Source: Thermocladium modestius JCM 10088
Lineage (GTDB): Archaea; Thermoproteota; Thermoprotei; Thermoproteales; Thermocladiaceae
Reading direction: 5' to 3'
Length of the DNA: 64,000 bases
Assembly (NCBI GenBank): GCA_001315925.1
Contig: BBBF01000001.1
Coordinates: 1-64,000, forward strand
The notes under the pieces were generated by a model. The model saw only the letters and a list, made by a program, of their open reading frames with translations. It was not told the origin of the DNA and ran no database searches. The position numbers and the translations under genes are program-made. Below, piece after piece: positions 29,248 through 64,000 of the stretch. Position 1 is the stretch's first letter; every line of letters starts with the position of its first letter.

Positions 29248-29248
29248 A

Positions 29249-36339: not shown

Positions 36340-36344
36340 CTGAC

Positions 36345-44789: not shown

Positions 44790-46061
44790 CTATTTGAAGG
44801 GCGATTTAGACATATGGGCCGCCTTCCCCCCCTCAGCCTCCCACATCCGAATCAATTCGTTTAATTTAGCCATGCGCTCCCCACCAACTATGCCGGTCTT
44901 TATGAGCGGGGGGGATTGGAAGCCCAGCGCCACGTGGGCCAGTAATTCCCGCTCTGTATCCCCGGACCTGTGAGACACCACTATGGTATAGCCATTCTCC
45001 TTGGCTAGCTTAACGGTTTCGAATGCCCTGCTAAGCGTGCCGACCTGGTCCACCTTTATTATTATGCCGTTCCCGGCTTTCTTTTCTATTCCCATCCTAA
45101 GCCTGGACGAATTGGTGACGAACAGATCATCCCCCCCCACTATCAAGCACTTGCCCCTCAACGCCGCCGTCAACTCCGCGAAACCGTCGAAGTCCTCCTC
45201 ATGAAGTGGGTCCTCGAAGTAAACTATGTTGTACTCATCAACTAACTGCTTTATGAATTCCATGTGCTCCTCGGCCGATCTCTCCTTGCCTTCACTCCTG
45301 TACTCGTATTTTTCCCCGTTCCACATCCCGGAGGCAGCCGCATCTATACCTATACCTATGGCGAACCCCTTTTCCTCGGCCTTCTTTTTTACAACGGTAG
45401 ATAGTATGCTCAATGCCTTTATGGTGGATATCTTGGCAGTCCAAGCACCCTCATCATTCTTGCCCCCCCCAGCAAATGTCGGGTCCTCCTTCGCAAGTTC
45501 CTTTCCCACCTCCTTATGTATCTCCAAATTGGTGCTAACGGCGGAGTATATATCCGGCGCACCGTATGGAATCACGAGGAACTCTTGAAAGTCAGGCCCC
45601 CCCAAATTCCTGGAGTGCTTCCCCCCCCTCCTATTACATTACTCACAGGATATGGAAACGATGATGCCAAGCTCCGCCCAAATATTTGTATAATGGCATT
45701 TCCAAGTAATTCGACGCGGCCGATGCAGCGGCCAGGGATGTGGCGAACGCGGATGCTCCTCCTATTCTCGCGAAATTCGGCGTGCCATCCACCTCCTCCA
45801 GCTTGGCATCTATTCCTCCCTGATCCACAGCATCCATCCCAATTAGGTCAGTCGCTACCCACCTCCTGAACATATCTATGGCAGCATCTACTCCATCTTG
45901 AGGCAGGAACTGCACCTCATGCTTCCCCTTGGAGGCGCCGGCGGGGGCGGTTGCCAGCCCCCTAACCCCCCCGCTCTCCAGGATTAATTCTACCTCGACG
46001 GTTTGATCCCCCCCCGTCCAGTGAAGGATTTCCTAATTATCGCGTCATCTATTGAAGACAT
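44790..46061 (-). CDS. eno: Enolase (phosphopyruvate hydratase), frame broken
   Basis: The glycolytic enzyme interconverts 2-phosphoglycerate and phosphoenolpyruvate. Features include ATAPAGASKGKHE, LLKY-type LYKYLGGAW, NVIGGGKHSRNLGGPDFQEF, DAAASGMWNGEKY, IVYFEDPLHEEDFDGF, IVGGDDLFVTN, IIIKVDQVGTLSRAFE and VVSHRSGDTERELLAHVALG, with the catalytic lysine and metal-binding Asp/Glu residues in place. About 423 residues. Breaks lie near 45652 (tgg-gca, one G missing), at the run of eight at 45611-45618, and at runs near 45965 and 46012. Upstream is the divergent top6B gene. Confidence 0.9.
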
Positions 46062-46191
46062 GGAAATCCCAGCCGACTCCGCCCTATTAAACATTTCATT
46101 CAATCAGATGGCTAACTATATTATGCCCATATTGATGTGGTTAAGCATGGTGGGGTAGATTTATTAAGGCGACTGCCACGGTTCGCCAAGA

Positions 46192-47788
46192 ATGGCCACT
46201 GACGTAAAGTTCGAATCATTATCGCCATCGGAGTGGTTCCGCAGAAATAAGGAATTGGCGGGCTTCGCCAACCCATCTAGGGCGCTCTATCAAGCCGTTA
46301 GGGAGCTAATAGAAAATGCATTAGACGCAACGGAGACCTTTGGGATCCACCCATTCATAAAGGCCTACATAAAATACGCTGAGAGGGATAATTGGCTATC
46401 CATATATGTAGAGGACAATGGGATTGGGATACCTAAGGATGAGATACCCAATGTTTTTGGTCGAGTATTCTATAGCTCCAAGTACAAGGTGAAGCAGCAC
46501 AGGGGGGGCATCTTCGGATTAGGGGCTAAAATGGTGATTCTCTATGCGCAATCGACCACCAATAAACCGATAACTGTGATAAGCGCCCAACAGGGATCGG
46601 ACAAGGTATATAGATTCGACATAATGATAGACACGCTCCGCAATGAGCCGCTTATAAAATACCAAGAGGAGTGGGATAACAAGTACAAGTGGCATGGAAC
46701 CGCGGTTCACGTGGTGATGGAGGGCGATTGGTTGAAGGCGAAGCACAGGGTGGAGGAGTATATCAAGAGAGTGGCTATGGTTGCGCCGTATGCGAGATAC
46801 ACGTGAAGGAGCCTGACGGCGCGGTCATTGATATAGAGAGGGTAACTTTGACTTTGCCCATTCCCCCCCGAAGGAGGGGGCTTCCCCCCCATCCCAAGAG
46901 CGTGGACATAGAGGCGGTCAAGCAGTTGATATCCAGGAATGGTGACTCCCCCCCCGTGTCGGAGTTCATGGTGGAGAACTTCGATGGGGGGGTGGGGGGG
47001 GAGGAGACTGCGATGAACTTCTTGCAATCCATAGGAATAGATCCGGGGAGGAATATAAAGGAATTGAACACCGATGAAATAACCCACCTGGTCACCAAGA
47101 TGAGGGAGTACAACGAATGGAGAAGGCCTCGAGCGGATTGGTTGAGTCCGGTGGGCACGGAGCTCTTGGAGCAAGGCATCCGCAAAACTCTGGAGCCGGA
47201 GGCCGTGTTCGCCACCACCAGGAAACCATCATCCTATTCCGGCAATCCCTTCATAGTGGAGGCAGCGGTGGCTTGGGGGGGAGGAAAGATAGAGCCCAGC
47301 GACAGGCCGATAATATATAGATTCGCCAACAAGGTTCCCCCCCTACTATATGACGAGGGAAACGATGTCGTGAGGCATGTGGTGGACGAGGTGGATTGGA
47401 GTCTATACAAGGTGAAATTCCCCGCGCCCTTGGTTGTCGTGGTGCACATATGCTCCACCAAGATACCGTATGCCAGCGCAGGTAAGGAGCAATAGCCGAT
47501 GTTCCCGAGATAGAGAGCGAGGTCAGGCTAGCCATCAGGGAGGTCGCGCGTCGCCTCAGGGTGTATCTCTCCAGGAAGGAGAAGGAGAAGGAAGCAATGA
47601 TGAGGTATGCCATGTTCACCATGTTCTCGCGAGAGGTGGCGTCATCCATAGCATCCATATTGGGGATTAAGGAGGATCAAGTCCTCAATAAATTGAAGAA
47701 GGTCATTTCAAGAAAGATTAAATACTTGGAAGCCATAGAGGAGGTGGAAGGAGATGGAGAGCAGCAGCAACAGCAAGGCCAAGCCTAG
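46192..47788 (+). CDS. top6B: DNA topoisomerase VI subunit B (frame broken)
   Basis: The ATPase subunit of the type IIB topoisomerase. GHKL motifs are VRELIENALDATE, VEDNGIGIP and the ATP lid RGGIFGLGAKM, then ITVISA and the transducer domain with YRFANKVPPLLYDEGNDVV. The lid has RGGIFGLG where the crenarchaeal form is RG(M/I)FGLG, and the extra Gly sits at a run of seven G (46502-46508). Slips near 46798 (APYA-EIHVKEPDG) and near 47490 join three segments, giving about 530 residues. It overlaps top6A by 35 bp. TATA gatttattaagg lies about 28 nt before the ATG. Confidence 0.9.
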
Positions 47789-48886
47789 ATCGGAGGTACT
47801 TAAGATAATGGAGGGCTTGGCGCAGGAATTATATGCACAGATAGAGCGTGGAGAGGAGCCCGTATTGGAGATCCCGTCGAGGACGTTGAGCAACACCGTG
47901 TGGGATCCGAAGAGGAGGATAGTGGTCCTGGGACCCGATAAGTTGAAGCGTAGATTGCTGGACATGAAGGAATCCAAGAGATTCATGCAAACCATATTGA
48001 TGCTTAAGCTGATAGTATCATCAATAAGGGAGGGCGTTTACCCCCCCACAATAAGGGATCTCTACTATAACGGGAAGCACACAATAACATTCAGGGTGCC
48101 CAATGTGGGCGCCGTTAGGGAGAACACGTGGGATGAGCAGGCTGAGTCGAACGCGGCAATAGAGGACTTGGAGGTTGGTCTGAACGTGTTGAGGGAGGAG
48201 ATGGGCCTTTCGGCCGACGTTAAGGGAAAGGTGGTCGGGCCCATAGTGGTTAGATCGAAGGGGTTCGAGATAGATGCTACTAGGATGGGGGATACGGCCC
48301 TGGGTCTGCCCCCCCGAATCCCGATGAGCTGGACATAGTGAAGATAGAGGCATCCTACGTACTGGTCGTGGAGAAGGATGCCATTTTCCAAAGGCTAAAT
48401 AGGGAGGGGTACTGGAATAGGGAGAATGCGATATTGATAACCGCGAGGGGTATGCCGGATAGGGCCACTAGGAAGTTCGTTAGGAGGTTAAACGAGGATT
48501 ACAAGCTGCCCGTGTATGTGTTGACGGATAGCGATCCATATGGGTATTACATCTACTCCGTGTATAAGTCCGGCTCAATAAAGCTAAGCTATGAGTCGGA
48601 GAGGCTGGCCACGCCCGATGCCAAGTTCATAGGAGTAACCACGTCCGATATAATAAACTATAAGATATCCAGCGACTACGTGATAGCCGCTAACGAGCGC
48701 GACATAAAGAGGGCGGAGGAATTGGTAAGGTATCCCTGGTTCCAATCCGAGGCATGGCAGAAGGAGATAAACCTATTCCTCAAGATGAAGAAGAAGGTCG
48801 AGATTGAGGCCTTATCCACGCATGGACTTAAATTCCTACACGATTACCTATTGGAGAAGATACACTCGGGAAAATGGATAGAGTGA
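47754..48886 (+). CDS. top6A: DNA topoisomerase VI subunit A (Spo11-like), frame broken
   Basis: The DNA-cleaving subunit. The winged-helix active site reads PTIRDLYYNGKHT with the catalytic tyrosine in DLYY. The Toprim domain has VLVVEKDAIFQRL and VYVLTDSDPYGYYIYSVYK. A run of seven C at 48041-48047 gives YPPTIRDLYY, one Pro more than expected. The run of seven at 48309-48315 breaks the frame; five bases restore LPPNPDELDIVKIEASY. About 377 residues, normal. The stop overlaps the bud32 ATG. Confidence 0.9.
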
Positions 48887-49507
48887 TGATAGCCAGGGGG
48901 GGCGGAGGCCGTTCTTTACTTGGAGGATTGGCTGGGATTAAGGGTGCTGGTCAAGGAACGCGTTGCCAAGCCGTACAGGTTGAGGGAGGTGGACGAGAGG
49001 ATCAGGTTTAGGCGGACAATAAACGAGGCCAAGAACATGCTTGCCGCGTCCCGGCTGGTCCCCCCCGTGCCAGAGGTATATGATGTCGACACATCCAGGT
49101 TCATTATAAGGATGAGGTACATAAAATCGCCTAGATTAATGGATCTTCTCCCTTCGCGGAGCGACTTGCTGCAATTGTTCGCGAAGTACTTGGCGATCCT
49201 GCACTCTAACGGCTTCATGCATGGAGATCCCACCCCCCCGGCAAATGCATTGGTGGGCGACCGCCTCTACATAATAGACTTCGGATTGAGCGCCAGGATG
49301 CCCGGTAACGGTTTATCAGTGGAGGAGGCCGCAATAGACCTCAACATTCTAATGAAGTCCCTGGAGAGCAATAATATGGCCGAGCTGGTGCAGATAGCCG
49401 TGGATGCATACCAAAGGGAACTGGGGGGGCCCCTCGGCTCCTCCGTCGTCAACCAAGTAAGGAAGATAAGAAGAATGGCGAGGTACCAGCTCAGGGGCAT
49501 TGGATGA
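48886..49507 (+). CDS. bud32: Bud32-type KEOPS kinase/ATPase (frame broken at 5' end)
   Basis: Reading from ATG at 48886, MIARGAEAVLYLEDWLGL is restored by removing one base from the seven-base run 48896-48902. Kinase features follow: VLVKERVAKPYRLREVDERI (ATP lysine), HSNGFMHGDPTPPANAL (catalytic loop) and IIDFGLSA. Bud32 works in KEOPS during N6-threonylcarbamoyladenosine synthesis on tRNA. DPTPPANAL has one Pro more than DLTPAN-type loops, at a run of seven C. The stop/start overlap with top6A makes a three-gene operon. About 206 residues. Confidence 0.85.
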
Positions 49508-49707
49508 GGCACTTACCTCCGTCCGTGGACTCAAAATCTCGCGGGCAGCTTAATTCTGTCATTGATCTTCAAGTGAAGGGATCCAACGATCTCTAGCCCA
49601 TGGACTCGCCTCCTAGTCGTTGCGTCCCGCCGCGTTTGGCATAATTGATCGCTTGTTCGCTCAAAATAACAAGCGCAATAAAAAAAGCGAGAATCAATTC
49701 TTAATTT

Positions 49708-51391
49708 ATGCGAGTTGCTGGGAGATCATGCAAGAGATGCATTGCGATTGTGGGCGTAATCATAGCGGTCTCCCTAGTAATGGCCACATATGGTTCACTT
49801 CACGTGCATAGGTCATTCATTGGTTCACCTCACGAACCACGTCCACCTCAAGCGTTTCCCTTCAATGGCGCTGTGTACTTGGCTGGCCCAGTTTCTCTAG
49901 GGGGGGCTAGGCTGGCGGCGGCTGGGTTCCCTAACTTCAGGCAGATCAATGCGTCAAACATCAAGGATGTGCCTCCCGGCTCCGTGGTGGCGGTGGATTG
50001 GGGGGGTTATCTTATCAAGAATATTAACTCCTCTTCAGTAACCAATTACTTGGAGCCCCCCCTCCTGAGGGGGCCATGACTTCATAATCATAAGCATCAA
50101 CGGTAGCGATGCCTTAGCGGCTGAGGTGGCGATAGCTAATGCGTGGAGGGAAGCATTTAATTCTAATGTCGTAGTGGTGCCTGGGCCGGGCAATGAGGAC
50201 TACGTTGTTGCGGCGGCGATAGGGAGTAGGGTTCTACTTATGGGGCCAGCCACTGCCAGCGACCTAGGGGGGGTTAAGAGGTACGAGTGGAGCGAATTCA
50301 TGGTAAGTTCGACTAGGCCTACATCATCACAATTGTTCGGATTGATTGCATCATCTTTCCAGCCGCTCTCCTCCTCGACCGCTGGCTCTGACGTGTGTGA
50401 ATACATGGCCAGTCAATACAATGCAGTTCCCGGGCAAGTCAATTATATCAATGGCGGCAATACCTACTTCTTCTTAACGGGCCAAGAGTATGTTTATGAC
50501 AATCAGTATGGCATTGATACTGACACGGAATATGCTGCGGACTTCTGCATAGCGGTAAGCGGTGATGTCAATCTAGGCGCCTTCAATAATATCAGGTATC
50601 CATACATACCGGGCAACACTTGGACCTGGATCTGGGTTAGGCCTGGCCCTGGAACCAGCATAAACTGGCTTTCCTCCTACCAAGACTACTACTCATCGTA
50701 TGAATGCGCCAAAGGCGTGGTGACGCCCGACATGGCACCGGTCTGCCCAATAAATGGAGTAACCTTCGCTGGCTGGGGTTACTGGTGGGGGATTTATCCA
50801 ATGGCCGGGCAAGACCAAGAATCATATGATGTGGGCGTGGGCATATCTACCTCAGGCGTGGGCTTCACCGGTGGGGGGGTCAATGTGATGGTTCCCCCCA
50901 TCAACCATAAGCATATACGGAGAGCCCAGCGTAGCCTTATCAACTAATTACACATGGGTTATGCAACCGAGCGTCTCCTATGCAATGGAGCCTAATTCAT
51001 TGGATACGGCCACCTCTAATTTCTACATAGTAAATGGGGGGGCTTTGACGTGGGGGGGGCCTCCTCGTTCGTCGAGATAGCCGTTCCCATGGGGGTCTCC
51101 GCCAGCGTGAACACGGGCGGTTGGATGGGTTGCACAAACGAGCTGGCCTCGCTTGATATGTATTGGCTGGTCTTCTATCCACAGCCACCGCCCAGCTTGA
51201 CTCCCTACTTCCACGTGATTAATTGGGGTTATGCTCATCAAAGCAGCTCCACCGGCGGTTGGAGGTTCTCGTGCACGGGAAACGGATTGCCGCCCCCCCA
51301 ATCACCTCCCCCCCTCAATCCTGAATTCACGCTAGTTTCCACATCGAAACAATTCGCCGTGGGAGATGGGGGGGGAACGCCCTTTAGCTGA
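49708..51391 (+). CDS. Large secreted protein of unknown function (frame broken)
   Basis: It starts with basic residues and a signal-like helix (RCIAIVGVIIAVSLVMATYG). The mature part is rich in Gly, Asn, Ser, Tyr and Trp, with many predicted beta strands (GNTWTWIWVRPGPGTSINWL, VTFAGWGYWWGIYPMAGQ). Cysteines are spaced as if for disulfides. Slips near 50070, 50900 and 51050 join about 560 residues. I do not recognise the family; it may be a surface or secreted binding protein or enzyme. Confidence 0.5.
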
Positions 51392-51717
51392 GGGGGGGTG
51401 GCTTCAATTCGGCTTTGCGGTTACCCGTAGCGCTATACGGCATTGCCGTTTACGTTATTCCCAGGTTTTGGGCAATGTAATACCTTAAATCGTGTGTCAT
51501 TAGGCTCTATTTCTTAAGTGTATTTAATGGGTTTCCGGAACTGTGTGCGTCCTTTGTTGAGGTCGGTCTTCATCTTATGTCTCCCGGCATTGGAGTTGTC
51601 GATTTGTGGATCAATTAATTGATAAGGCCTTTTCCTTAAGGGATCGAGGTCATTGTTCGCCCTTGGCGCCGCGCTATTTCTTTCTTTTTTACATGGATGT
51701 CTTGTTCAAATGAAAAT
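51392..51717. other. Intergenic region, no supported gene
   Basis: It contains no open frame with coding character. The AT-rich right end leads into the promoter of the methyltransferase gene. Confidence 0.4.
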
Positions 51718-51745
51718 ATTTAAATACGTGTAATTTTTTAGTTAC
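51718..51745 (+). promoter_or_regulatory. Shared promoter/operator element, copy 1
   Basis: A TATA box (atttaaatacg) is followed by gtaattttttagttac, which has the inverted ends GTAA and TTAC. The same 28-bp block with one substitution recurs at 52559-52586. It ends three bases before the ATG at 51749. Confidence 0.7.
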
Positions 51746-51748
51746 ATT

Positions 51749-52564
51749 ATGGATGTCTACAAACACGTATTCAGATATCGTTTGGTGTTATTCATTGCCA
51801 TCTATGTTATGGGGTTTGCGGTTTCTCGAGGTCCTTCATTGGCCGCATACCTACTCGCTTTGTTTCATCTTTCTCTCATGCAGATCAAGATATTCGTAAT
51901 GGCTTGCTCCATAATAGGCATAATGGGTTTTCTATTAAGGATATGGGGGGGTTCGGGTTACTTGGGTTCTTCAATAGTTCATTCGCGACTAATTCATGAC
52001 GAATCATTGATAACTTGTGGACCGTATGCGCATGTGAGGCATCCGCTATATTTAGGCTCATTATTGATGATTATCGGCTTTCTCCCTATCTTGTCGCTAT
52101 TTGGTTTAATCTTCATTGTAGCCGCGCTCGGTGTCTTGATTTACTTGCTTATAGTTGCAGAAGAGAGAATCCTTATATTAAGCCATGGAGAGGAATACTT
52201 GAAATATAGGTCGGCAGTCCATGCTATAATACCTAGGTTTAGGGGAATAACTTGCAATTCAGCGATTAGATTCGACTTAAGGAAGGGGGGGTTAGAGAGC
52301 GAAGTTCTATATATCTTCATTTTATCTCCGCTAATAGGCGGAGTATTTTTATCATCAATGGTCTTTTATGTCTCATTCTTTTCATTGCTTATGATGGGGG
52401 TTGGCTCTATTCATTATCCTGAGAGGCAGTCGCTTGAGGTTGCGTTAAGAAGATCGTGTCTGGAAACACTTTGTCGGAAGCTTCGCTCTTCCTCGGTTGA
52501 TCCTCGCCTTGATATCGGGTGCAATTGTTGGTATATTGCGATTCCTCGCCTGAGAAAAATTTAA
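51749..52564 (+). CDS. Membrane methyltransferase of the ICMT/PEMT type
   Basis: Hydrophobic helices surround the conserved block CGPYAHVRHPLYLGSLLMII, then AEERILILSHGEEYLKYRSA and VHAIIPRF. These are the SAM-binding features of isoprenylcysteine carboxyl methyltransferase and phospholipid methyltransferase relatives. The substrate is probably a membrane lipid or small hydrophobic molecule. The last 60-70 residues look unlike the rest, so the true end may be near 52420. The promoter is nearly identical to that of the ArsR operon downstream. Confidence 0.65.
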   Translation: MDVYKHVFRYRLVLFIAIYVMGFAVSRGPSLAAYLLALFHLSLMQIKIFVMACSIIGIMGFLLRIWGGSGYLGSSIVHSRLIHDESLITCGPYAHVRHPLYLGSLLMIIGFLPILSLFGLIFIVAALGVLIYLLIVAEERILILSHGEEYLKYRSAVHAIIPRFRGITCNSAIRFDLRKGGLESEVLYIFILSPLIGGVFLSSMVFYVSFFSLLMMGVGSIHYPERQSLEVALRRSCLETLCRKLRSSSVDPRLDIGCNCWYIAIPRLRKI

Positions 52565-52586
52565 ATACGCGTAATTTTTTAGTTAC
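52559..52586 (+). promoter_or_regulatory. Shared promoter/operator element, copy 2
   Basis: This is the same TATA-plus-gtaattttttagttac block as at 51718-51745, with a single T-to-C change. It ends about 15 bases before the ATG at 52601 of the ArsR-like regulator, which is the obvious candidate to bind both copies. Confidence 0.7.
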
Positions 52587-52600
52587 TTTGATGGAAATGT

Positions 52601-52921
52601 ATGGAAAAGAAGGGGGGGTTGGAGGAGATGGCCTCCATAATGGATGGCCTCGGCCATCCGCTGAGGCTGAGGATAATAGCGATACTGGCGATGAATGGCT
52701 CGCTTTACTTATCGGATATAGCGAAGAGACTGGGGGGTGAGCCGGGCCTTGGCAAAGGTCCACTTGGTGAAGCTGCAGAAGGCAGGCTTGGTGAGAAGCA
52801 GCGTGAAATTAGTGGAAGGAGAGGCGAAGGCATTGAGGTACTACGAATTGGTGGACTTCAATATAACCGTGAACCCCCCCGCATAATAGTGGAACTGGCG
52901 GGTGGCGGAGATGAGCGGTAA
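52601..52921 (+). CDS. ArsR-like winged-helix regulator (frame broken)
   Basis: MASIMDGLGHPLRLRIIAIL starts a typical ArsR-type domain. SLYLSDIAKRLGVSRALAKV is the HTH and HLVKLQKAGLVRSSVKLVEG the recognition helix and wing; this reading needs five G instead of six at 52734-52739. A short tail (YYELVDFNITVNP) follows. No metal-binding cysteines are visible. About 105 residues. The 3' end overlaps the next gene, so regulator, membrane protein and surface protein form one operon. Confidence 0.7.
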   Translation: MEKKGGLEEMASIMDGLGHPLRLRIIAILAMNGSLYLSDIAKRLGGEPGLGKGPLGEAAEGRLGEKQREISGRRGEGIEVLRIGGLQYNREPPRIIVELAGGGDER

Positions 52922-53201
52922 ATACGACAGGAGCTTCATAGTGGAAACTGCAATAGTGTGGGCCGTAGTGGGGATCAGCGTGGTGGCCATGGTGATGTAC
53001 GCGGGAGTGACGGGCGTGGTCTTTTCCTTCGTGGTTCTGGTAGTGGGCGTCACCTCGTGGAGCAGGATAATCAGGACAAAGGAGGCGGTTCCCTCCGTCG
53101 GACAGGTAAGCGATTTTGGGAAGTCCATTGAGGAGTTAAACAGGCAGATACAGATGCTAAACGAGAGGATAAGGGAGCTTGAGAAGGAGCTCCAGGAGTG
53201 A
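52911..53201 (+). CDS. Small membrane protein with C-terminal coiled coil
   Basis: ATG at 52911 overlaps the regulator stop. Two membrane helices (ETAIVWAVVGISVVAMVMYA, GVTGVVFSFVVLVVGVTSW) are followed by a cytoplasmic coiled coil (SIEELNRQIQMLNERIRELE). Such proteins may signal between membrane and regulator. The family is not named with certainty. The stop overlaps the next start. Confidence 0.55.
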   Translation: MSGKYDRSFIVETAIVWAVVGISVVAMVMYAGVTGVVFSFVVLVVGVTSWSRIIRTKEAVPSVGQVSDFGKSIEELNRQIQMLNERIRELEKELQE

Positions 53202-54040
53202 GTATGAGGCTCGAGACCAAGGCAACTATATTAGTGCTGGCGGTGGTAGCCGCCTCAGTCATTCTCAGCTTTCTCGTAAATCATCTAATTAATGGGACTG
53301 CATCCATTACCACGAAGTCCATTCCCATGAATGATGTGAACCACATATATATAGCCGCACGTGATTCTGCGGGTAACTTAACCATTCGCTCCTATGCTGG
53401 TCAATCCCTCCAAGCGATAGAGATTAAACGCTCAATTTTATGTCCACCGAACTATTTGCATTACACTGTCTCGGAGGTCGATGCCTCGCTTTATTTGAGC
53501 ATAAGGTCCAACGAGCAATTCTATTGGTGGCCGAGCTGGCTATGCTCCATTAACTTGGTTTTACTGGTTCCCGACTCGCGGGTCCTCGGACTAATATCCA
53601 TTAACGGCACCAACGGATTTGTTTCGCTGAATGGAACCAAGATAACGACAGCTGGAGTGGACCTCGTCAATGGAATGGTTTATCTAAATGACGTGAATGC
53701 ATCGAGCCTCCGAATATCCTTGGTCAACGGCGTGGCCCTCCTCATTAACTCCAGCTCGAGTTACGCTGCTATATCCTTGGTCAACGGCGTGGCCAATATG
53801 TCATTTACTCATCAAAGCTACGGCAAATATTCCGTATCCATCATCAACGGCGTGGTGAACTCCGAAGTTCCGGCCAACTCATCCGTGCTAATATCAGTCA
53901 ATAATGGTAAAATCACCGTTGAGACCCCAACTGGAATGGAAAATTATGCTGGTACATCATTACAATATGAAAAGAGTTCCGGTTCTCCCTCGTTTATTAT
54001 ATCCGTAATAAACGGCGTCGTGAAAATGCGCGAGCGGTAG
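53198..54040 (+). CDS. Membrane-anchored beta-helix protein (DUF4097-like)
   Basis: An N-terminal anchor (ATILVLAVVAASVILSFLV) is followed by an extracellular domain of repeating strands marked by LVNG or IING motifs (VDLVNGMVYL, ISLVNGVALL, ISLVNGVANM, VSIINGVVNS, ISVINGVVKM), each about 20-25 residues apart. This resembles DUF4097/adhesin-type beta-helices that bacteria encode beside membrane-stress regulators. Intact frame, about 280 residues, with no seven-base runs. Start GTG at 53198 or ATG at 53204. Confidence 0.6.
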   Translation: MSMRLETKATILVLAVVAASVILSFLVNHLINGTASITTKSIPMNDVNHIYIAARDSAGNLTIRSYAGQSLQAIEIKRSILCPPNYLHYTVSEVDASLYLSIRSNEQFYWWPSWLCSINLVLLVPDSRVLGLISINGTNGFVSLNGTKITTAGVDLVNGMVYLNDVNASSLRISLVNGVALLINSSSSYAAISLVNGVANMSFTHQSYGKYSVSIINGVVNSEVPANSSVLISVNNGKITVETPTGMENYAGTSLQYEKSSGSPSFIISVINGVVKMRER

Positions 54041-54104
54041 AAATTTATGATGTATTGAACAAAAAGGGTTTATCGTACTATTAGAATTTGAGGCGAAAAA
54101 CACA

Positions 54105-55332
54105 TTACTTGCTTGTGGTTGAATTCAGCTCCCTTAGCATTACCAACAGGGTCTCGACGTCCTTTATGGCATTATCGATCACCATGTATTCATTAGGGGA
54201 GTGGGCGGTCTCATCTATGGTCATCCAAACCGCCGTTGGCATGCCGCGCTCCCTCAGATACTTGGCGTATGTGCCCCCCCACCTATGCCCACGGGAACGG
54301 CGCTTACTCCCCCCCGGGTTCGCTTCAATGCATTTATCAAGCCTGTCACCACGGGAGAATCGGGAGGCGTTGGTTGGCTGGGGTCCTCCCTATTGACGAC
54401 CTCTACATTGATTTTACAACCATATATGGAGCAAAAGGACTCCGCGAGCTTCCTCACATCCGTAAGAACATCATCTATCCTATACACCGGAAGTATCCTG
54501 CAGTCGAAGTAATACACATCGGTGCCCGGAATAGTATTTACGTTATCCACGTTCTTCTCCCTCTTGGTTGGCTCAAATGTGGATATGGGCGGCTCAAACA
54601 TAGCATCTATTGCGTTATACCTCTCGTGCAGGTACGTATCCATCTCGATTGCCAGCCTCATTCCCAGCCTCGCCGCATTAAGCCCCCTTGCCGGGAGTGC
54701 TGGCGTGCGTTTGCTTCCCCTCAACGCTAATCCTCATCCAAAGAATGCCCTTCTCGGCCACCTCCACCCTGGAGCCATCTGGCTGCCCGCATCTGGTACT
54801 ATAACCAAATCGCCGGGCTTGATTAGGTTGGGCTCCGCCTTAAGCAGGTACTGGATGCCATACTTGGACCCCACCTCCTCATCGCTGGCCAGTATGACGC
54901 CTAATCCCCCCCTTAATTCCTCCTCCCTGGCTGCCTCCGCCAATAGGATCCCCCCCTCCAATACTCCCTGCCCATCATCCTCCGTTCCCCCCCTCCCGTA
55001 GATTTTATTTCCCTCCACCGTGGCTTGGAAGGGCGGATATCTCCATAGGTTGGGATCCCCCCCTCTGGAACCGTATCCATGTGCGCTATTATCCATAGCA
55101 TTCTCTCGCCTCGAGTGGTGGCCACTATGTTGGGCCTAACGCCGCCCTTAGCGCGGGGGTCCGGCGCATCCACTCGTCGCACCTCGTCGAAGAAGGGCCT
55201 TATATAACCTTGCAGGAACTCCGCTCTATCCAGCTCGCCCTCCCCCCCGCCGTTTTCGGGAGCCAAAGCCTTTATCGGTATCATTTCCTTCATTATCTTG
55301 ATTGTCTCCGCCCGTAGCTCGTTTGTATCCAT
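54105..55332 (-). CDS. M20-family metallopeptidase (ArgE/DapE/CPG2 type), frame broken
   Basis: Metal ligands and neighbours are recognisable: IIAHMDTVPEGD, YGRGGTEDDGQGVLEGG, ILASDEEVGSKYG, LVIVPDAGS, a dimerisation domain (KGLNAARLGMRLAIEMDTYL), and VPVGIGGGTYAKYLRERGMP with a final histidine segment (DETAHSPNEYMVIDN). It hydrolyses an acyl or peptide bond of a small substrate. Several slips (near 55067, 54985, 54775, 54695 and 54275) mostly lie at six- or seven-base runs. About 405 residues. The TEDDGQG loop has a preceding extra Gly. Confidence 0.75.
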
Positions 55333-55405
55333 AAATAAGCAGCTGCCAACAACAATAAAGCATTTCCCTCAAAACGCGATTGGGGGCTCGGTTCTTCTTT
55401 GTCAA

Positions 55406-56113
55406 TTACCATGGAACTATGATGGATCCCACGTCATCCCTGCCGCTCAACGCTGCCTCCAGCATCTCAGGGCTCCGTCCATCGATTATCTGCATAGATA
55501 TTCCGCTCCTCTTCATTATGGAGAGGGCCCATCTATCTATTAATTCGTAGGTGCCGGCGACCACCTCCGCGCTGCGCTCAAGTATCTTCTCGGCCTCGTC
55601 TATGGTTGCCCTGCGTATCTTCTTGGCCTTAGGATCCTTTGCGGGATCGGATTCGTATAATCCATCAACGTTAGCGCAGTTCAATATCTTGCGTATCCCC
55701 CCCAAGTACTCCGATACAAGCGTGGAAACCATTGTTGTAGATTGACCGGGCTGTAGTCCACCCATTACTACTAGGCCGCTGTCCAGCCAAGCCTCCCCAG
55801 CCTCCTCCAGGCTGGTCACCACCCTGGGATGGACTGTGCCTCCCCCCCTAGCGTTTATGGCGTATATCAAGAGCAAGGCATTTAACCTGCTTGCCCCCCC
55901 TATGCCTAACATATCGTTTGCCGCCTCGCTTAGCGATAATTGCCTTCCCGCCTCTATGTATCGCCTCGCGGTGTCCCCCCCGCCCGTCACTATGGCTAGC
56001 CGCATCCCCCCCCTCTCCTTGGCTGCCAAAATTATATCTATATATCTCGAAATGATATCGACTGAATTGAATATTCGGCCCGACATCTTTATTGTGATGG
56101 AATCCACGGTCAT
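55406..56113 (-). CDS. pyrH: UMP kinase
   Basis: The archaeal UMP kinase makes UDP from UMP. Visible motifs: IKMSGRIF, RLAIVTGGGDTARRYIEA, ML-GIGGASRLNALLL, VMGGLQPGQSTTMVSTLVSE, NVDGLYESDPAKDPKAKKI and SGISMQIIDG. About 235 residues. GIGGASRLNA has one Gly more than GI.ASRLNA, at a run of seven. The ATG at 56113 is chosen because ttttaaaaa lies about 22 nt upstream. Intact frame. Confidence 0.88.
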   Translation of the reverse strand: MTVDSITIKMSGRIFNSVDIISRYIDIILAAKERGGMRLAIVTGGGDTARRYIEAGRQLSLSEAANDMLGIGGASRLNALLLIYAINARGGGTVHPRVVTSLEEAGEAWLDSGLVVMGGLQPGQSTTMVSTLVSEYLGGIRKILNCANVDGLYESDPAKDPKAKKIRRATIDEAEKILERSAEVVAGTYELIDRWALSIMKRSGISMQIIDGRSPEMLEAALSGRDDVGSIIVPW

Positions 56114-56290
56114 GATTGCGCCGGCCGTTTTTAAAATATAGCTGGACAAGCTATTGTTCGGCTCAGCATTGGAATTCAGTCTCATTTAAGGCCGAAACAC
56201 GGCTCATTAATGCAGCCTTCATCCATGGACGCGTTTACCTCGGTTTCCTGGTTTGGATTTCTTATCTTTCAGGGTAGGGAGGATATTGAA

Positions 56291-56328
56291 GATAAAATTA
56301 ATTATTTGTGATAAAATTAATTATTTGT
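56291..56328. repeat. Perfect 19-bp tandem duplication
   Basis: The unit gataaaattaattatttgt occurs twice without interruption (56291-56309, 56310-56328) between pyrH and cren7. It is AT-rich and could be a recent slippage duplication or a paired binding site. Confidence 0.8.
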
Positions 56329-56355
56329 TTTTGAGAGGGAATTGGTTGTTTTTCC

Positions 56356-56556
56356 TTAGGGCTCGATTTTTCCTATCGACTTTCTTATTGTCTTTCCATT
56401 GGGGCACTTGAATAGTCCTATTACGACTCCCTTTCTACCCTTTGGTGCAAGGGTCCATACCTTTATTGGCTTTAGTTTCGTGGTGCGTCCATCGCATTCC
56501 ACGTCGTATTCTTTCTTTTGGTAGTCTTGTAGATTGACCGGCATATCTGGTCGCAC
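56356..56556 (-). CDS. Cren7-like chromatin protein
   Basis: The core [20 protein letters not shown] matches the strongly conserved Cren7 block [19 protein letters not shown], a small beta-barrel protein that bends and stabilises DNA in crenarchaea. Here it continues [18 protein letters not shown]. The N-terminal extension contains one cysteine, and another lies in FKCPNG. Start is GTG at 56556 or ATG at 56544; tttatatacc lies 20-30 nt upstream. Intact; 62-66 residues. Confidence 0.85.
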
Positions 56557-56866
56557 TGCTTAATTGTATTCAGGTATATAAATGGTTAATATGATTTAAA
56601 TGGTGAGAATCAATCTATTAATTCTCTTTTTGCAATGATTTAATGGACAATACTGCATTTTCTCTATTATTAATAGCAATATTTTTATTCTTTGCTTTAT
56701 TTAAAAATTGTGATGAAAGGCCCAAGCGCGGACGATAAGATGAGGAAGCATTACATCTATGGGCTAATGCTGATTCTTGCCTGCAATCGGCTAGGGAAAC
56801 ATTTATTAACCCATGTGTAGGAATCACGCTTGAACGAGGCGATTTGAACGGCGGAAAGAAGACCGT
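56557..56866. other. AT-rich intergenic region
   Basis: It holds the cren7 promoter at its left end. A plus-strand ATG near 56714 could encode 35 residues (MKGPSADDKMRKHYIYGL), and gtgatga/ctga sequences hint at a C/D RNA, but neither is convincing. Confidence 0.3.
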
Positions 56867-57168
56867 ATGGGCGAAGAGGCCCACCGAGGCGAAGAAATTT
56901 ACCCAAGCCCGTTAATGAGGGCGACGTAGTGGAGGTGGAGGTCGTCGAGACCTCCAGGAAAGGGGGGGATGGGGGGGTTGCGAAGGTCAACGGCTTCATA
57001 ATCTTCGTCCCCAACACTAAGCCGGGAGATAAGGTCCGCGTTAAGATCTCCAAGGTAGGCCGATCCTACGCTGTGGGAGAGGTCTCCTCGGAGGAGCCAA
57101 CCGTCAACGCGGGCGCTTCTCCTCAAGCAGAGGACGAAGAGGAAGACGAGGAGGAAGACGAAGAGTAA
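56867..57168 (+). CDS. TRAM-domain protein (frame broken at 5' end)
   Basis: KPVNEGDVVEVEVVETSRKG opens the TRAM beta-barrel, followed by AKVNGFIIFVPNTKPGDKVR and SKVGRSYAVGEVSS. Archaeal free-standing TRAM proteins act as RNA chaperones. The motif KGDGxAK reads KGGDGGVAK here; both extra glycines sit in exact seven-base runs (56962-56968 and 56971-56977). A slip near 56908 joins the N-terminus MGEEAHRGEEIYP. The tail (EDEEEDEEEDEE) is acidic. About 100 residues. Confidence 0.75.
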
Positions 57169-57255
57169 CCTTCATCTCCGCGATCATAAAAATAATCCGC
57201 TATCTATTCCCGCTCCTAAAGTTTAAATACCTTAGTTTAGGGAAGTGCTGCAGTG

Positions 57256-57424
57256 ATGACCACTTCTGATGATGACGATGGATGAAATGGCCATGCCCCC
57301 CCAGACTGATGGAGTGAAGGTTTTTTATCTTATTTTCGGCCGTTCATGGATATTCCTTGAACTCGATAGGGCTATAGTGGCCATTGTTCCTCAGGGATCG
57401 GCGAGTAATAGACTTCATAGTTAG
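57256..57424 (+). CDS. Possible small protein (frame broken)
   Basis: A TATA box (agtttaaatacc, about 57221-57232) lies about 28 nt before ATG 57256. MTTSDDDD is followed, after a slip near 57280, by DEMAMPPQTDGVKVFYLIFG and ELDRAIVAIVPQGS, ending at 57424. The promoter and hydrophobic core give some support, but no family is recognised. Confidence 0.35.
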
Positions 57425-57470
57425 GATGGTTATCTTTCCATGCCTCGATTATGTTTCTTAGATGGGAATT

Positions 57471-58400
57471 CTAGTTAGATGCTTTGCTATAGCTCTTCAG
57501 CGAGTTTTCCACTATTGATTCGCTGCACTCCTCTACATCTTCTATTCCCAAATTAATTAACCTATAGTTGATTGAATTAATTTTAAGCAAGTTCAAATCA
57601 GCCCAGAGAACTCTAACCAAGTATTCATCCAGTGTTTTCGCATCCAGTTTGATCAATGGAGTGGAATTATGGGATAAGGTAGCGATTCCTCCATCCATGC
57701 TTATTTCCATGTCATTCGCGGTGAGCAACTGACTCGCTTGTGGTCGCTGCATGAATGCATTGACATATGCAGCCCCCCCGCGCGACAGCGCTATTGGAAC
57801 TATATCGCTGGCGGTGGGGGGGGTTCTATTGGTTCCTTCCCTCAATATGTTTATGTACGCATCCGCCACGTCTTCAAGCGGCGTCTTGGCCACATCTACT
57901 GTGAAGTATATTATTAATTCCATCCCGGCCTCCACATCCACGGAAACCACGTCTTGCTTAAGCAATTCCTCAAGGGATTTAGTAGGATTATTGTATTCAT
58001 AAGTTAATCCCACGTATTTTCTCACGGATTGTTTATTGAGGAAAACCACCCGCTCATAAATGCTGCCCAACGCGGCATCCTTGCATGTGATTACTATGCT
58101 TCCATCGGAGTTACTTATCTCGACGCAGTCCTCGAACTCCTCGAATCTGATGCTGTTTATTTGCAGCCTATTTTGCTGGGCAACATTAAATAATTTATTC
58201 AATTCATTTGTGGATATGGTATACTCAAGATGCCTTCCATCCGCCCTATAGTCGTATTGATCAAATGGATATGATTCAATGATATCCATTAGGGTGAGCT
58301 TATCAATCCTTTTCGTGAACATGGATCTTTGTATAAATGCATCCTTTATCAAGTCCTCCGTTACCTGAAGCAGCCTTATCTTGATTAGTACTTGTTCCAT
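57471..58400 (-). CDS. Hypothetical protein, 309 residues
   Basis: The protein is intact, acidic and soluble, with alternating helices and strands (MEQVLIKIRLLQVTEDLIKD, EYTISTNELNKLFNVAQQN, VVSVDVEAGMELIIYFTVDV). It has no membrane segments, cysteine clusters or nucleotide-binding motif that I recognise. Two seven-base runs are in frame (RTPPTASD and RGGAAYV). Confidence 0.5.
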   Translation of the reverse strand: MEQVLIKIRLLQVTEDLIKDAFIQRSMFTKRIDKLTLMDIIESYPFDQYDYRADGRHLEYTISTNELNKLFNVAQQNRLQINSIRFEEFEDCVEISNSDGSIVITCKDAALGSIYERVVFLNKQSVRKYVGLTYEYNNPTKSLEELLKQDVVSVDVEAGMELIIYFTVDVAKTPLEDVADAYINILREGTNRTPPTASDIVPIALSRGGAAYVNAFMQRPQASQLLTANDMEISMDGGIATLSHNSTPLIKLDAKTLDEYLVRVLWADLNLLKINSINYRLINLGIEDVEECSESIVENSLKSYSKASN

Positions 58401-58458
58401 ATTTATATTAATTGAACGCTATAGGAAGTTTTAAAACTAATCGCCCACGGATGGCTCA

Positions 58459-59335
58459 ATGATAGATCGCCGCTCCTTCGAGGAAGTAATGGAGTTAGCC
58501 ATTAAAAAAATGAACGGTGCGGGGCCGCTGGTGCGAGTTACCATGAAGGATGCAATAATATTGGGCGATCTTCATGGCGATTTGCACACGCTCGAATCCA
58601 TTTTGGAGAAGTACGGCGATGGCCATCCAAGGTACGTGGCTCTTGGGGGGGACTACGTGGATAGGGGCGAGTATCAAGTGGAGACGCTCTACAAGGTATT
58701 GGAACTCTTCGTTGATGGTTCCCTGATTCCATTGAGGGGGGGGAATCACGAATCCAGGCTAACCAGCTTCGATTATGGATTCGCTGAGGAAGCAATGCAT
58801 TACTTGGGAGGTGATTTGTTCAATAGGGTGTTAAGCGATCTATTTCCACGGCTGCCCTACGCGGCTGTATTGAATGACTGCTTGTTCTTAGTGCATGGCG
58901 GGGGGGTGCCCAACCGATTCCAAGCCTTGCAGATATAGAGAAGCTTCGCATGGGAGACGCGGATCCGGCCGATCCAGTGGCATTTCAGCTGTTATGGAAT
59001 GATCCGGCCGAAATAAAGGGGGGGTACGCGCCTAATCCAAGGGGGGGTCCAGGCATATACTTATTTGGAAGCGATGTCACGGAGAGCTTCTTGAAGATCA
59101 ATCACTTATCTGCAATAGTGCGGGGGGGCCATGAATCTTCGCGGAGGGCTACGAATTGTATCACGATTCAAAGGTGATAAGCATTTTCACATCGAAGGGA
59201 GGCGTTTATAGGCAAACAAAGCCCAAGGTGCTTCGAGTGGTGGATGGCGAGGCTGAGATAATCGACGTGGAGACTTCCCAAGTCATCAAAAAGATGGCCC
59301 TCGCCCAGCGGGAAGAAGAGTCATCTCAAGCATAG
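58459..59335 (+). CDS. PPP-family serine/threonine protein phosphatase (frame broken)
   Basis: All PPP metal motifs are recognisable: ILGDLHGDLHTLE, LGGDYVDRGEYQVETL, PLRGGNHESRL, LVHGGGVPN, LLWNDPAEI and IVRGGHE. Family consensus is GDxHG, GDxVDRG, RGNHE, HGG(I/V)P and RGHE. Every extra Gly (LGGD, RGGNH, HGGGV, RGGH) coincides with a run of seven or eight G. Slips near 58930 and 59140 join the C-terminal ADIEKLRMGDADPADPVAF and EGYELYHDSKVISIFTSKGG. About 290 residues, normal for archaeal PP1/PP2A-like enzymes. Confidence 0.85.
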
Positions 59336-59377
59336 AGCGGATTAATTTAGAAATATTAAGGGATTCATTGGAGTACT

Positions 59378-59856
59378 TCACTGGAATTCCTTTACGTATA
59401 TATTAGTTAATGGCCTGAATCCGTACTTCTTATAGAAGTTCACAGCTATTTGGTTCTGGGCGGGGAACTCGGCGGATATCAATTGAGCCCCCCCTTGGAT
59501 TTCAGGAGAGCTATGGCCTTATCCATCATTTGCTTTCCAACTCCTTTCCTCCTCCACTCCGGCATCACATAGAAGTCCGTTATGACGCCCTCAATAGATG
59601 GCTCGTAGAACAGCCTCCTCCTGATCTCGGCCACCACTATCCCAACCACATCCCCCCCGGAATCGGTCTCAGCTATCATCAATAGCTTCCTGTCCTTATT
59701 GGAGGAGCACTCCTCCAAATATTTCTTTGCTTGTTCAGCCGCATCGTTGCTCACCTTAAAAAGCGGATCGAATTCCTCGTTTAATCGCTTGAGCCTGACC
59801 ACCAGATCGACCATTTTATCCATATCCTTCTCGCCCGCTTCCCTTATGGTTATCAT
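59378..59856 (-). CDS. GNAT-family N-acetyltransferase (frame broken)
   Basis: The N-terminus ITIREAGEKDMDKMVDLVVR and the acetyl-CoA site VITDFYVMPEWRRKGVGKQM define the GNAT fold. After a slip at the seven-base run 59489-59495, the C-terminus reads AQLISAEFPAQNQIAVNFYK and KYGFRPL, as expected. About 158 residues. The start abuts the malic enzyme stop, so co-transcription is likely. The acceptor is unknown. Confidence 0.75.
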
Positions 59857-61214
59857 TCACTTCACCTCTACCAACAACTCCTCCGGTATCTGCTTTATAA
59901 GGCCTATCTTCATCAATTGATCTAGGGAATTCCTCGATGAGTTTATTATGTTCTTGGCCCTCTCGTACTCCTCGTTCCTAGTCGTACTCCTCCGCGCCAC
60001 TCCCACCTCCACGGCCTTAACCGCCGCCGCAGCGGCAGCCCTCGGATAGATCTCCCACTCCGTCATGCTGGGAATTATGTAATCCTCATTTATTCCCCCC
60101 CTCTCCTCCGCATACCTGGCCAGCTCTTGGGAGACGGCTATGATCATTTCGTCAGTTATGGTTCTAGCCCTCACATCCAAGGCTCCTCTGAACACCGCTG
60201 GGAATATCAAGCTATTATTGACTTGGTTTGGATAATCGCTTCTTCCGGTAGCCACTATCCTGGCCCCCCCCGCCTCCTTCGCTTCCCACGGCCACATCTC
60301 CGGCACTGGGTTTGCCAGCAGGAACACTATTGCATCCTTATTCATGGCCCTAACCCACTCCTTCTTTACAACGCCCGGCCCTGGAGTGGATGCCGCTATC
60401 AAAACGTCTGCTCCGCTGACGGCTTCCTCCATGGTCTTCGCCCGTCGGGAGTTAGTCTTCAACGCCAAATCGTACTTCCATGGATGGCTCAACATCAAGT
60501 GATCCATATCGTCTCTCTCGGCGTGCAGCGGCCCCCTTGCTATCGACTAGTATTATGTTGCCAGGCTTGGCGCCCGCCGTCATTAAGAGCCTGGCGGTGG
60601 CTATGTTGGACGCCCCCGCTCCATATAGCACAATGGTTGTATCTTCTATTCTTCTATTAGTCAGCTTCAATGCATTGTATAACCCAGCCAAGCTGGCCCC
60701 CCCGGCCGTTCCTTGCTGATCATCGTGCCACACAGGTATAGCCAGCTCCTTCCTTAGGGTATCCAATAAATAGAAGCATTTGGGGGGACTCTATGTCCTC
60801 CAGGTTTATGCCGCCGAACGCTGGCTCTATTGCCTTGGCTACCTGCACGAACTCCTCTTGCGTCTTGGCCCTTATGGGCATCGGTATGGCATCCACTCCG
60901 CCCAGGTACTTGTATATAAGGGCCTTCCCCTCCATGACCGGCATAGCGGCCTCCGGCCCGACCTTTCCTAGGCCCAGCACCCTGGTTCCATCAGTTAACA
61001 CCACTATGGCGTTCCACCTCCAAGTTAAGTCGAAGGACTTATCAGGGTCCTTGGCTATCTCGAGCGAGACCCCAGCCACGCCGGGAGTGTAGTATATTGA
61101 GAAGTCCTGTAAGTTAGTCACGGGAACTTTCGGAATGGCGGAGATCTTTCCGCCGAATAGCTTGGCCACCTCTATTGATACCTTATACCATGACTTTGTC
61201 TTGTCGGCACTCAT
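59857..61214 (-). CDS. NAD(P)-dependent malic enzyme (frame broken)
   Basis: It oxidatively decarboxylates malate to pyruvate. Motifs: [110 protein letters not shown] and [22 protein letters not shown] carries an extra Gly at a run of seven. Slips near 60780 (run of six) and 60515 join three segments into about 450 residues. ATG at 61214 has a TATA-like element (gcatattaatcc) about 27 nt upstream. Confidence 0.85.
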
Positions 61215-61292
61215 TGACAAACATACAATTAAGTGGATTAATATGCTTTTCGTTGATCGACGCAATAATAATAATCAATAATCGATAATCTT

Positions 61293-61850
61293 TCAAACCA
61301 ACGCCATCTCCAGCTTATCGATCAGCTCGGCAATTGTGGCGGAATTAAGGCCCTTGTTGTTGAGTATTATCACGTCTATTCCCCCCCGCAGCTGGGCGAA
61401 CCATTTATCATGGGTTATCAAGATGACCCTTCCATACTTCTTAGCCATGTTTATAGCCATGGCTGCTATATCCGAGTCAGGCCTTGGATCGCTTATTATC
61501 ATTATATCCATTCCCTTAATGGCTCCAATCCGCTCGGCCTCCCTCAGCAATTTGCCTATATATATGGCGTTGGCATCCACCACCGCGAGTACTCCATGGA
61601 AATCACAGCTGAGCCTACCCAGGCTGGAGGCTGCATCGATGTATTTGCCCCCCCGCTTAGCGTGGACGTATGGCTTGATCTCCACAATGCGAGCACCCAT
61701 TACCAACTTTACCCGAGGCTTCATGTAATGCAGCCTCTGCAGCAGCTGTCCAAGGGCGTACCTTACAGGTTTAGTCAGCCTCCTCCTACGGCACTCGCAC
61801 ACCACGAATAACTCATCGTCCGGGAGGACCTCCACGTAGATCCTTTTCAA
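61293..61850 (-). CDS. NYN/PIN-like nuclease-fold protein
   Basis: The C-terminal two thirds have the alternating strand-helix pattern and acidic residues of NYN/PIN nucleases: GVLAVVDANAIYIGKLLREA, IMIISDPRPDSDIAAMAINM, VILITHDKWFAQL. The N-terminal part is basic (CECRRRRLTKPVRYALGQLL). It may act on RNA, but catalytic use is inferred only. 185 residues, intact. A seven-base run gives KRGGKYID. Confidence 0.5.
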   Translation of the reverse strand: MKRIYVEVLPDDELFVVCECRRRRLTKPVRYALGQLLQRLHYMKPRVKLVMGARIVEIKPYVHAKRGGKYIDAASSLGRLSCDFHGVLAVVDANAIYIGKLLREAERIGAIKGMDIMIISDPRPDSDIAAMAINMAKKYGRVILITHDKWFAQLRGGIDVIILNNKGLNSATIAELIDKLEMALV

Positions 61851-62388
61851 CCCCCACCTCCGCCACGGCGAGCTTGAGGGAATCCACCGATTTAATGCAA
61901 TTATAACATTATAAAAAACATAGCGGTTAATTCATAAACTACCCCATCTTTACGAACTGGGTCTCTGGTGATAAAGATGAAAACTGGCTCTACATGGGAA
62001 AATAATGGTATTCCATCCAACGCCCCCATGCATTGCATTAATGGCTTGCATTCTAAGGCATCGCGAAATCAGAGGCAGGTTGACGCTCTCCTCTGCATCA
62101 TCAATCAAATCGACTCGGAATAGATATACCGCGTGCTTCGTTGGCATGATGAAACTTCTCAGCCTTAATGAATTAATTCCATTGTATTTAGGCAGTTATT
62201 CATAGCTTATCTCCATTTCCATCAAGTCCTTGCATGGACTGTTTTATGGATGGCAAAGGATAGTGGTCCCCTTCCTTCAGGGTAGGGAGGGAGGTCAAAC
62301 GAGAGAAGGTGGTAATTCATGATGCTATTAAACCAGATATATGTCAAATATATGTGCGAGTTGATCATTGAATATATCGTTCAATTAA
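61851..62388. other. Intergenic region, no supported gene
   Basis: Short open frames exist on both strands, but none has a promoter, a family match or convincing composition. A possible hairpin, ccttccttcagggtagggagg, lies near 62270-62290; part of it (ttcagggtagggagg) recurs at 56268-56282. Confidence 0.35.
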
Positions 62389-62805
62389 TTACTTCTCATC
62401 CTCTATGTTATTTGTTGTGTTTTTATCCATTATTATAATGTATGGTATGGAGTCCACCATTAATACCAGGAGCGGTCCATCCCACATTATGAAATCTATC
62501 TTTTTCTTAAAATCCTCCAACAAAGCGTACTTCTTCTTTATATAAGCTATGGCCTCGTTTATTATCAACATTTCTGTGTTTTTGCTTGCCTTATAGTAAA
62601 TCCTTGCATTGAATATCTCCTGTCCGCTTGAATTCTTGAATACTATCTCCTTAAATGCCTCATTGGAGGGAAGAGGGTCTTCTCCACTGTAATTCTTGGT
62701 CACCGCACTCAAACTCATCAATTCACGCCTAAGCGATGCCAATTCCGTATCTACATATGCTCTCAACTCCTTAGAGTTCCTGAAATGCTTGACGATAACG
62801 CGCAT
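62389..62805 (-). CDS. Hypothetical protein, 138 residues
   Basis: An N-terminal coiled segment (SKELRAYVDTELASLRRELM) precedes a beta-rich middle (EIVFKNSSGQEIFNARIYYK) and a C-terminal strand pair (GPLLVLMVDSIPYIIIMD). Intact and without G/C runs of six. I do not recognise the family. Confidence 0.45.
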   Translation of the reverse strand: MRVIVKHFRNSKELRAYVDTELASLRRELMSLSAVTKNYSGEDPLPSNEAFKEIVFKNSSGQEIFNARIYYKASKNTEMLIINEAIAYIKKKYALLEDFKKKIDFIMWDGPLLVLMVDSIPYIIIMDKNTTNNIEDEK

Positions 62806-62989
62806 TTACCTGTTCAGTTCTATCAATGTTTAAAAAATTTGCCTATACCCTCAAACTTCCCAATAACGCACCACCACATTCAAACAAGATAATTCATTGA
62901 ATGCAAATAATAAAGAATTAACATGAATTATCAAAGGAATGGACCAATCCCAGGCCTAAGGCCAGCTCAATTACGGCATTAATGGTTTT

Positions 62990-63069
62990 TGGCGGACCCG
63001 GTGGGATTTGAACCCACGACCTACGGCTCCGAAGGCCGCCGCTCTGATTCCATACTGAGCTACGGGTCC
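62990..63069 (-). tRNA. tRNA-Arg (TCG)
   Basis: The acceptor ggacccg/cgggtcc is perfect, with G73 and CCA encoded. The D-arm gctc-agtatggaatc-agagc and T-arm gtggg-ttcaaat-cccac are regular. The anticodon stem gcggc/gccgt encloses cttcgga, giving anticodon TCG with U33 and G37 in place. No intron. A TATA-like aacttaatac lies about 25 nt upstream. Confidence 0.9.
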
Positions 63070-63127
63070 AGGAGGTTAGCTTCTGGCTCGTATTAAGTTT
63101 TTCCAGGGCTCCTTCGGCATGGCTGGA

Positions 63128-63685
63128 TCACGGCATGGCCCTCCAATGCTGGATTACTAATGGGAGGGCTCGCCTGAAGTACTCCCTGAAGCTCGGCAGC
63201 TCCATGAGGGGGGGACCAACTATCTCGGGCCGGCACTCCCCCCCTAATTGCTTTATGGCCTTATCCATTATTACGCCGGGCGCCAGAATCAAGAGAAGCA
63301 AGCTTTTAGGGCACTTGCTCCTCACGTAACTGGAGAGAAGCGGCTCCCCACTCTCTATAAAGGATACATCTGGCTTTAGACCTCTTAATGTGAGTGGCTT
63401 ATTGGATCCATGAACAGCTACTAGATCAACTCCCAACTCATTAATGAAATCCACGAAGCCAGGCCACTCCATGAGCGGTGGGACGCCGGACGCGCATGCA
63501 GCCTCCGCCCTCTCATAATCGGCTCCCCCCCTGGCCACGTAGAGCGGAATGCCGTAGCCAGGTTCCAAGCATTGAAATGAGTATTGGATTTTAAGGGACT
63601 CGGCGAAATCCGCCACCGCCCTCAAGTACCGAGGATCCCTCGAACCGTGAAGTATTATCCTAACCGAAGAGGCTGGATAAGCCAC
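63128..63685 (-). CDS. CbiX/SirB-like protein (possible chelatase)
   Basis: The N-terminus VRIILHGSRD-PRYLRAVADF has the HGSR motif of sirohydrochlorin chelatases, and a second SGVPPLMEWPGFVDFINELG and VAVHGSNKP follow. CbiX-type enzymes insert cobalt or nickel into sirohydrochlorin. The rest is less typical, so confidence is moderate. GTG start at 63685, overlapping the uL10 gene end by 26 bp. Seven-base runs give ARGGADY and QLGGECR. 185 residues, intact. Confidence 0.45.
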   Translation of the reverse strand: MAYPASSVRIILHGSRDPRYLRAVADFAESLKIQYSFQCLEPGYGIPLYVARGGADYERAEAACASGVPPLMEWPGFVDFINELGVDLVAVHGSNKPLTLRGLKPDVSFIESGEPLLSSYVRSKCPKSLLLLILAPGVIMDKAIKQLGGECRPEIVGPPLMELPSFREYFRRALPLVIQHWRAMP

Positions 63686-64000
63686 CCAAGGCCTCCTCCT
63701 CTCCCTTTTCCTCCTTCTTCTCCTCCGCCTCCTCCTTCTTCTCCTCAGTCGCTGGGTTCGCCGGCTGGGCTTGTTGCGGAGTTGAGACTTGTATGCCGAG
63801 CTCCGGCGCCTTGCTCGCTATTGCGGATGCCAAAGCATTCGCCTGCGCCTCCGCCTTCGCCAGTATCGGCGCCGCGGATTCTTCCGTGAATATCAACGCA
63901 TTCACAGCCAAGTTAATGGACTCCGCCACGGCCTTCCTTATGTAGACCGGCATCAATTCGGGCAGCGGATAGACGGCATTGACGGCTAGGTTATACGCTT
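63660..64000 (-). CDS. Ribosomal protein uL10 (P0), C-terminal part
   Basis: The gene runs off the window. The visible part (AYNLAVNAVYPLPELMPVYI, AVAESINLAVNALIFTEESA) is the archaeal uL10 helix region that binds P1/L12 dimers. It ends in the acidic tail EEKKEEKGEEEALGGLSSLF-G that recruits translation factors; LSxLFG is the signature shared with P-proteins. The usual tail is ALxxLFG or similar. Here EEEALGGLSSLFG may carry one extra Gly. Confidence 0.85.
   Translation of the reverse strand, partial: AYNLAVNAVYPLPELMPVYIRKAVAESINLAVNALIFTEESAAPILAKAEAQANALASAIASKAPELGIQVSTPQQAQPANPATEEKKEEAEEKKEEKGEEEALGGLSSLFG

Follow-up and report, generated by a model that had tools for sequence, protein, structure and literature searches.

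The extra glycines in the motifs of a protein phosphatase gene of Thermocladium modestius JCM 10088 most probably stem from a systematic error in G/C homopolymer length, made at base-calling or consensus, in the deposited draft genome. Judging from comparisons with related sequences, we put the probability of this reading at about 97%. Most true G/C runs of at least four bases (~60%) would have been written too long and would pile up at seven, sometimes eight, bases (4 to 7, 5 to 7 or 8, 6 to 8, 7 to 8), with runs of three or fewer and all A/T runs left untouched. Additions of a multiple of three would yield one extra residue (Gly or Pro), and all others a frame break. On this reading, the true gene would be an unremarkable archaeal PPP phosphatase whose motifs are all standard.

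The phosphatase gene as deposited

The gene at 58459..59335 on the plus strand of the window (the whole 64,000-nt stretch analysed, positions 1..64000) encodes a PPP-family Ser/Thr protein phosphatase of the archaeal PP1/PP2A-like type. Its first piece matched PF00149 (E = 1.5e-12; 48.8 bits against a cut-off of 21.5), the calcineurin-like metallophosphoesterase domain by which PPP Ser/Thr phosphatases are recognized. Its orthologue in a congener (G001) matched PP2A, calcineurin and PP1 chains (best E = 3.7e-37) and has all motifs in place. With this protein as query, tblastn returned ~68% identity over the first piece and aligned three frames across 58459-59335: frame 1 for 58459-58914, frame 3 to about 59135 and frame 2 to the end. 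Owing to two one-base frame breaks, the gene as written cannot be read through.

Inside the gene lie these two breaks and six G runs of 7–8 bases, each of the six being three bases longer than expected from the congener protein. The G7 run at 58645..58651 gives LGGDYVDRG where the congener has GGGG and LGDYVDRG, and the G8 run at 58736..58743 gives RGGNHE for RGNHE. A G7 run at 58900..58906 yields HGGGVP, the relatives having HGG(I/L/V)(P/A). Three more G7 runs produce KGGY for the congener’s SGY (59018..59024), PRGGPG for PRGPG (59041..59047) and RGGHE for RGHE (59122..59128). By alignment, the first break falls within 58907..58920, one base being missing relative to the congener frame just after 58906, and tblastn changed from frame 1 to frame 3 at 58902. 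The second falls within 59129..59138, with one base missing just after 59128 and a tblastn change from frame 3 to frame 2 at 59135-59138. All of these features are on the plus strand.

The first-pass annotation had correctly read the four altered motifs, each at a run of 7–8 G, from the window. Three of its run positions (58645, 58736 and 59122) stand, whereas the one placed at 58910 is really the run ending at 58906. The four runs that it named exist, but the two at KGGY and PRGGPG were left out of its count, and both frame breaks were overlooked. Its proposal that each insertion would disappear were the run three bases shorter applies to all six phosphatase runs, but fails as a general rule: elsewhere, runs also go from 5 to 7, from 6 to 8 or from 7 to 8.

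With an extra Gly in four motifs and two frame breaks, the GDxHG, GDxVDRG, GNHE, HGG and RGH motifs depart from their canonical spacing as written, which we attribute to probable sequence error. An alignment with PPP phosphatases of related species, as the first-pass annotation had proposed, showed standard motifs in all 19 unaffected relatives, LGDYVDRG and RGNHE being present in every one of the 19 orthologues. From archaeal PPP-family Ser/Thr phosphatases (PP1/PP2A-like), the gene differs in its lengthened runs and frame breaks only.

Run lengths across the assembly

The window contains 194 G/C runs of 7–8 bases (161 of 7 and 33 of 8) against ~11 expected under an order-2 Markov model; G/C runs of 4 and 5 are depleted, and A/T runs are as frequent as expected. 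To follow run lengths beyond the window, we drew statistics from ~0.2-0.9 Mb of stretches and combined them with whole-genome pattern counts. Three genomes of the genus were compared, within a family that includes Caldivirga and Vulcanisaeta. The present assembly (G000) comprises 1.92 Mb in 118 contigs at a completeness of 47.6%, whereas a congener of equal size (1.9 Mb) reaches 97%. Its GC content is 52.2% in a sample of 0.89 Mb, with 53.14% listed for T. modestius (PMC7565180).

Exact 7-base G/C runs number 7,958 (4,190 + 3,768) in the whole genome; its two congeners have 43 (20 + 23) and 119 (63 + 56), and each of the other family members compared has 0-8. Over about 596 kb, G/C runs of 4, 5, 6, 7 and 8 bases occur 199, 79, 51, 385 and 120 times per 100 kb, the congener values being 596, 155, 36, 1.7 and 0.2. 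The density of runs of at least four bases nonetheless differs little, at about 834 per 100 kb for this assembly versus 789 for the congener; since the total is nearly unchanged, run lengths were moved from 4-5 to 7-8 rather than runs being created. A sharp ceiling lies at 8, and A/T run counts are equal in the two genomes. A length shift across a whole assembly that conserves the number of runs, and that is missing from independent assemblies of close relatives, is what systematic homopolymer error entails.

About 35-40% of runs of 4-5 bases are unaffected, and we found no strong rule for which ones are. A constant addition of three bases at every run is ruled out by changes of 5 to 7, 6 to 8 and 7 to 8 and by a few of 4 to 5, 4 to 6 and 4 to 3. 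Local context did not provide a rule either, the 3’ neighbour having a weak effect only (lengthened fraction 0.54 before C, 0.66 before T). A printed-strand asymmetry, with more C than G runs lengthened in the window, was striking in the first contigs, reversed in others and not significant overall. Which base is more often affected varies between contig stretches, G runs leading in some and C runs in others (e.g., stretches C4 and C23 versus C1 and C3).

RNA genes, non-coding DNA and neighbouring genes

Aligned to that of the congener, the 16S rRNA gene is 96.7% identical, with 75 bases inserted and one deleted, almost all at G/C runs. Four bases became seven at 14 of 26 comparable sites, and changes of 5 to 7, 6 to 8 and 7 to 8 were seen as well; A/T runs and runs of three or fewer are essentially unchanged. 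Several of the lengthened sites, such as AGATACCCC, GTAGGGGCGA and GTAGGGGAAC, show no variation among the six relatives compared. The tRNA-Gly(CCC) gene (7339..7432, minus strand) carries a C7 run matched by C6 in both congeners (6 to 7) and a G7 run matched by G5 (5 to 7). The anticodon loop region of this tRNA is enlarged, at the same place in both congeners, perhaps by an intron.

The lengthened fraction is 0.656 for G runs on the sense strand, 0.626 for sense C and 0.651 in non-coding DNA (outside ORFs). This likeness gives no sign of selection for frame; selection on proteins should make coding DNA differ from non-coding DNA, and the lack of a difference argues against a real process filtered by selection. 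That rRNA, tRNA, coding and non-coding DNA are affected alike is again as expected of a systematic homopolymer error. The emphasis of the first-pass annotation on four motifs of one enzyme was misplaced, as the runs simply fall at places where Gly or Arg codons create GGGG.

When relatives’ proteins were aligned to the assembly, 83 of 91 one-residue insertions lay at G/C runs of at least six bases, and 17 of 24 frame breaks lay no more than 20 bases from such a run, a distance within which only ~17% of aligned positions fall. Next to the phosphatase, an acetyltransferase-like gene (59381..59856, minus strand; type assigned by eye from the sequence) is broken in frame at the C7 run 59488-59494, with the congener protein aligning in two frames that meet at 59491. 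The following gene, which by eye resembles malic enzyme (59857..61265, minus strand), aligns to its congener protein in three frames, being broken around 60536 and again at the G6 run at 60782, and carries one-residue insertions at 60095, 60264 and 60697. Four regions of the window (41851-44492, 46168-47785, 54120-55368 and 59857-61265) are split into 3-4 frames, their congener orthologues being single-frame. Spurious gene fissions will turn up in every annotation made from this draft.

Other drafts and competing explanations

Thousands of such runs occur in only three of the 81 genomes of the class, namely this one and two Vulcanisaeta drafts (G067 and G068; completeness 67%), which hold 3,857 and 4,803 runs against 0-6 in their congeners (loci L138-L143 and L148-L151). 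The rRNA region of G068 displays the same run-length shift as T. modestius. Its phosphatase reads RGGNHE and is frame-broken, and that of G067 is frame-broken too.

Matches to G7-N(1-2)-G7, some of them overlapping, number 369 in the present assembly and 0-9 in normal relatives. In the window, pairs of G7 or C7 runs one or two bases apart are seen at 33510-33524, 37558-37572, 38134-38148, 46986-47001 and 56962-56977; each pair probably arose from adjacent GGGG runs that were both written too long. The pairs resemble the GnNiGn repeats (n > 7) given in a published account for drafts of T. modestius JCM 10088, Thermogymnomonas acidicola JCM 13583 and Methanogenium cariaci JCM 10550, three distant archaea that are all JCM strains, with ‘up to several 100’ such repeats (PMC8044849). 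In its treatment of these elements, that account regards them as repeats and leaves them out, without calling them errors there (PMC8044849), whereas we read those of the present assembly as probable errors.

The T. modestius pattern shares with general homopolymer-length error in drafts its confinement to homopolymers, the one-residue insertions, the frame breaks and the low apparent completeness. It is unlike such error in affecting only G/C runs of at least four bases and in stacking at 7-8 rather than scattering by one base. For Vulcanisaeta souniana JCM 11219, the complete genome (AP026830) was preceded by two short-read drafts, one from Ion Torrent PGM (BBBK01) and one from Illumina (HiSeq X Ten, BMNM00) (PMC9872577). 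A literature search returned no sequencing method for the T. modestius draft. Ion Torrent is a plausible cause, offered here as a guess. To our knowledge, a G/C-only expansion stacking at 7 is the textbook pattern of no platform that could be named with certainty. Comparison among genomes nevertheless points, with high confidence, to a technical rather than a cellular cause.

The first-pass annotation had left two options, wrong run lengths or a step after transcription that restores frame and length. In the latter, the DNA itself would contain the runs, and length and frame in mRNA and rRNA would be restored by slippage during transcription or by some later step. Long homopolymers are known to cause slippage, and the runs are mutually consistent over 1.9 Mb. 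However, exact shortening would be needed at roughly 8,000 to 10,000 sites, including invariant 16S rRNA sites and a tRNA; non-coding DNA is equally affected; and the runs are missing from two congeners, which, with their normal runs, need no repair. The defect also appears in two drafts of another genus and not in that genus’ complete genomes. We consider restoration unsupported and extremely improbable. The same low odds apply to the wider proposal that a handful of archaeal strains, namely the present one and the two Vulcanisaeta, truly have G/C runs lengthened to 7–8 bases in their cells and shorten them in RNA by slippage or editing. A real mutational process, such as a polymerase or repair defect, might instead have lengthened G/C runs recently, with additions of three tolerated in genes. 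G/C-specific slippage exists in nature, and all six phosphatase changes are multiples of three; yet lengthened runs are not enriched in coding over non-coding DNA, gene-breaking additions of two are common, and invariant rRNA positions are affected as often as other sites. Together with the ceiling at 8 and the separate appearance of the same signature in Vulcanisaeta drafts, this leaves such a process scarcely credible. Hardly any weight falls, either, on the view that the gene has decayed into a pseudogene or encodes a divergent phosphatase whose Gly insertions are genuine: this view would accommodate the two frame breaks, but the same lesions recur in neighbouring genes and in the 16S rRNA gene, and the orthologues from all 19 unaffected relatives are standard.

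The other option, incorrect run lengths, is strongly supported: the pattern spans the assembly, strikes rRNA and tRNA genes as often as non-coding DNA, is not seen in congeners, returns in two unrelated drafts and accompanies low completeness. For predicted G-quadruplexes, T. modestius JCM 10088 ranks with the richest archaeal genomes (PMC7565180), and an assembly of V. souniana JCM 11219 is conspicuous for apparent gene fissions (PMC11237513). The run-length defect might conceivably account for either. The ratio of 7-base to 4-base G/C runs can serve as a flag for affected assemblies. Several public archaeal drafts are affected, which creates spurious single-residue insertions and gene splits and inflates counts of G-rich motifs. 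As for T. modestius itself, the extra glycines are in all likelihood not a real feature, no restoring mechanism is needed, and the finding does not merit pursuit as biology.
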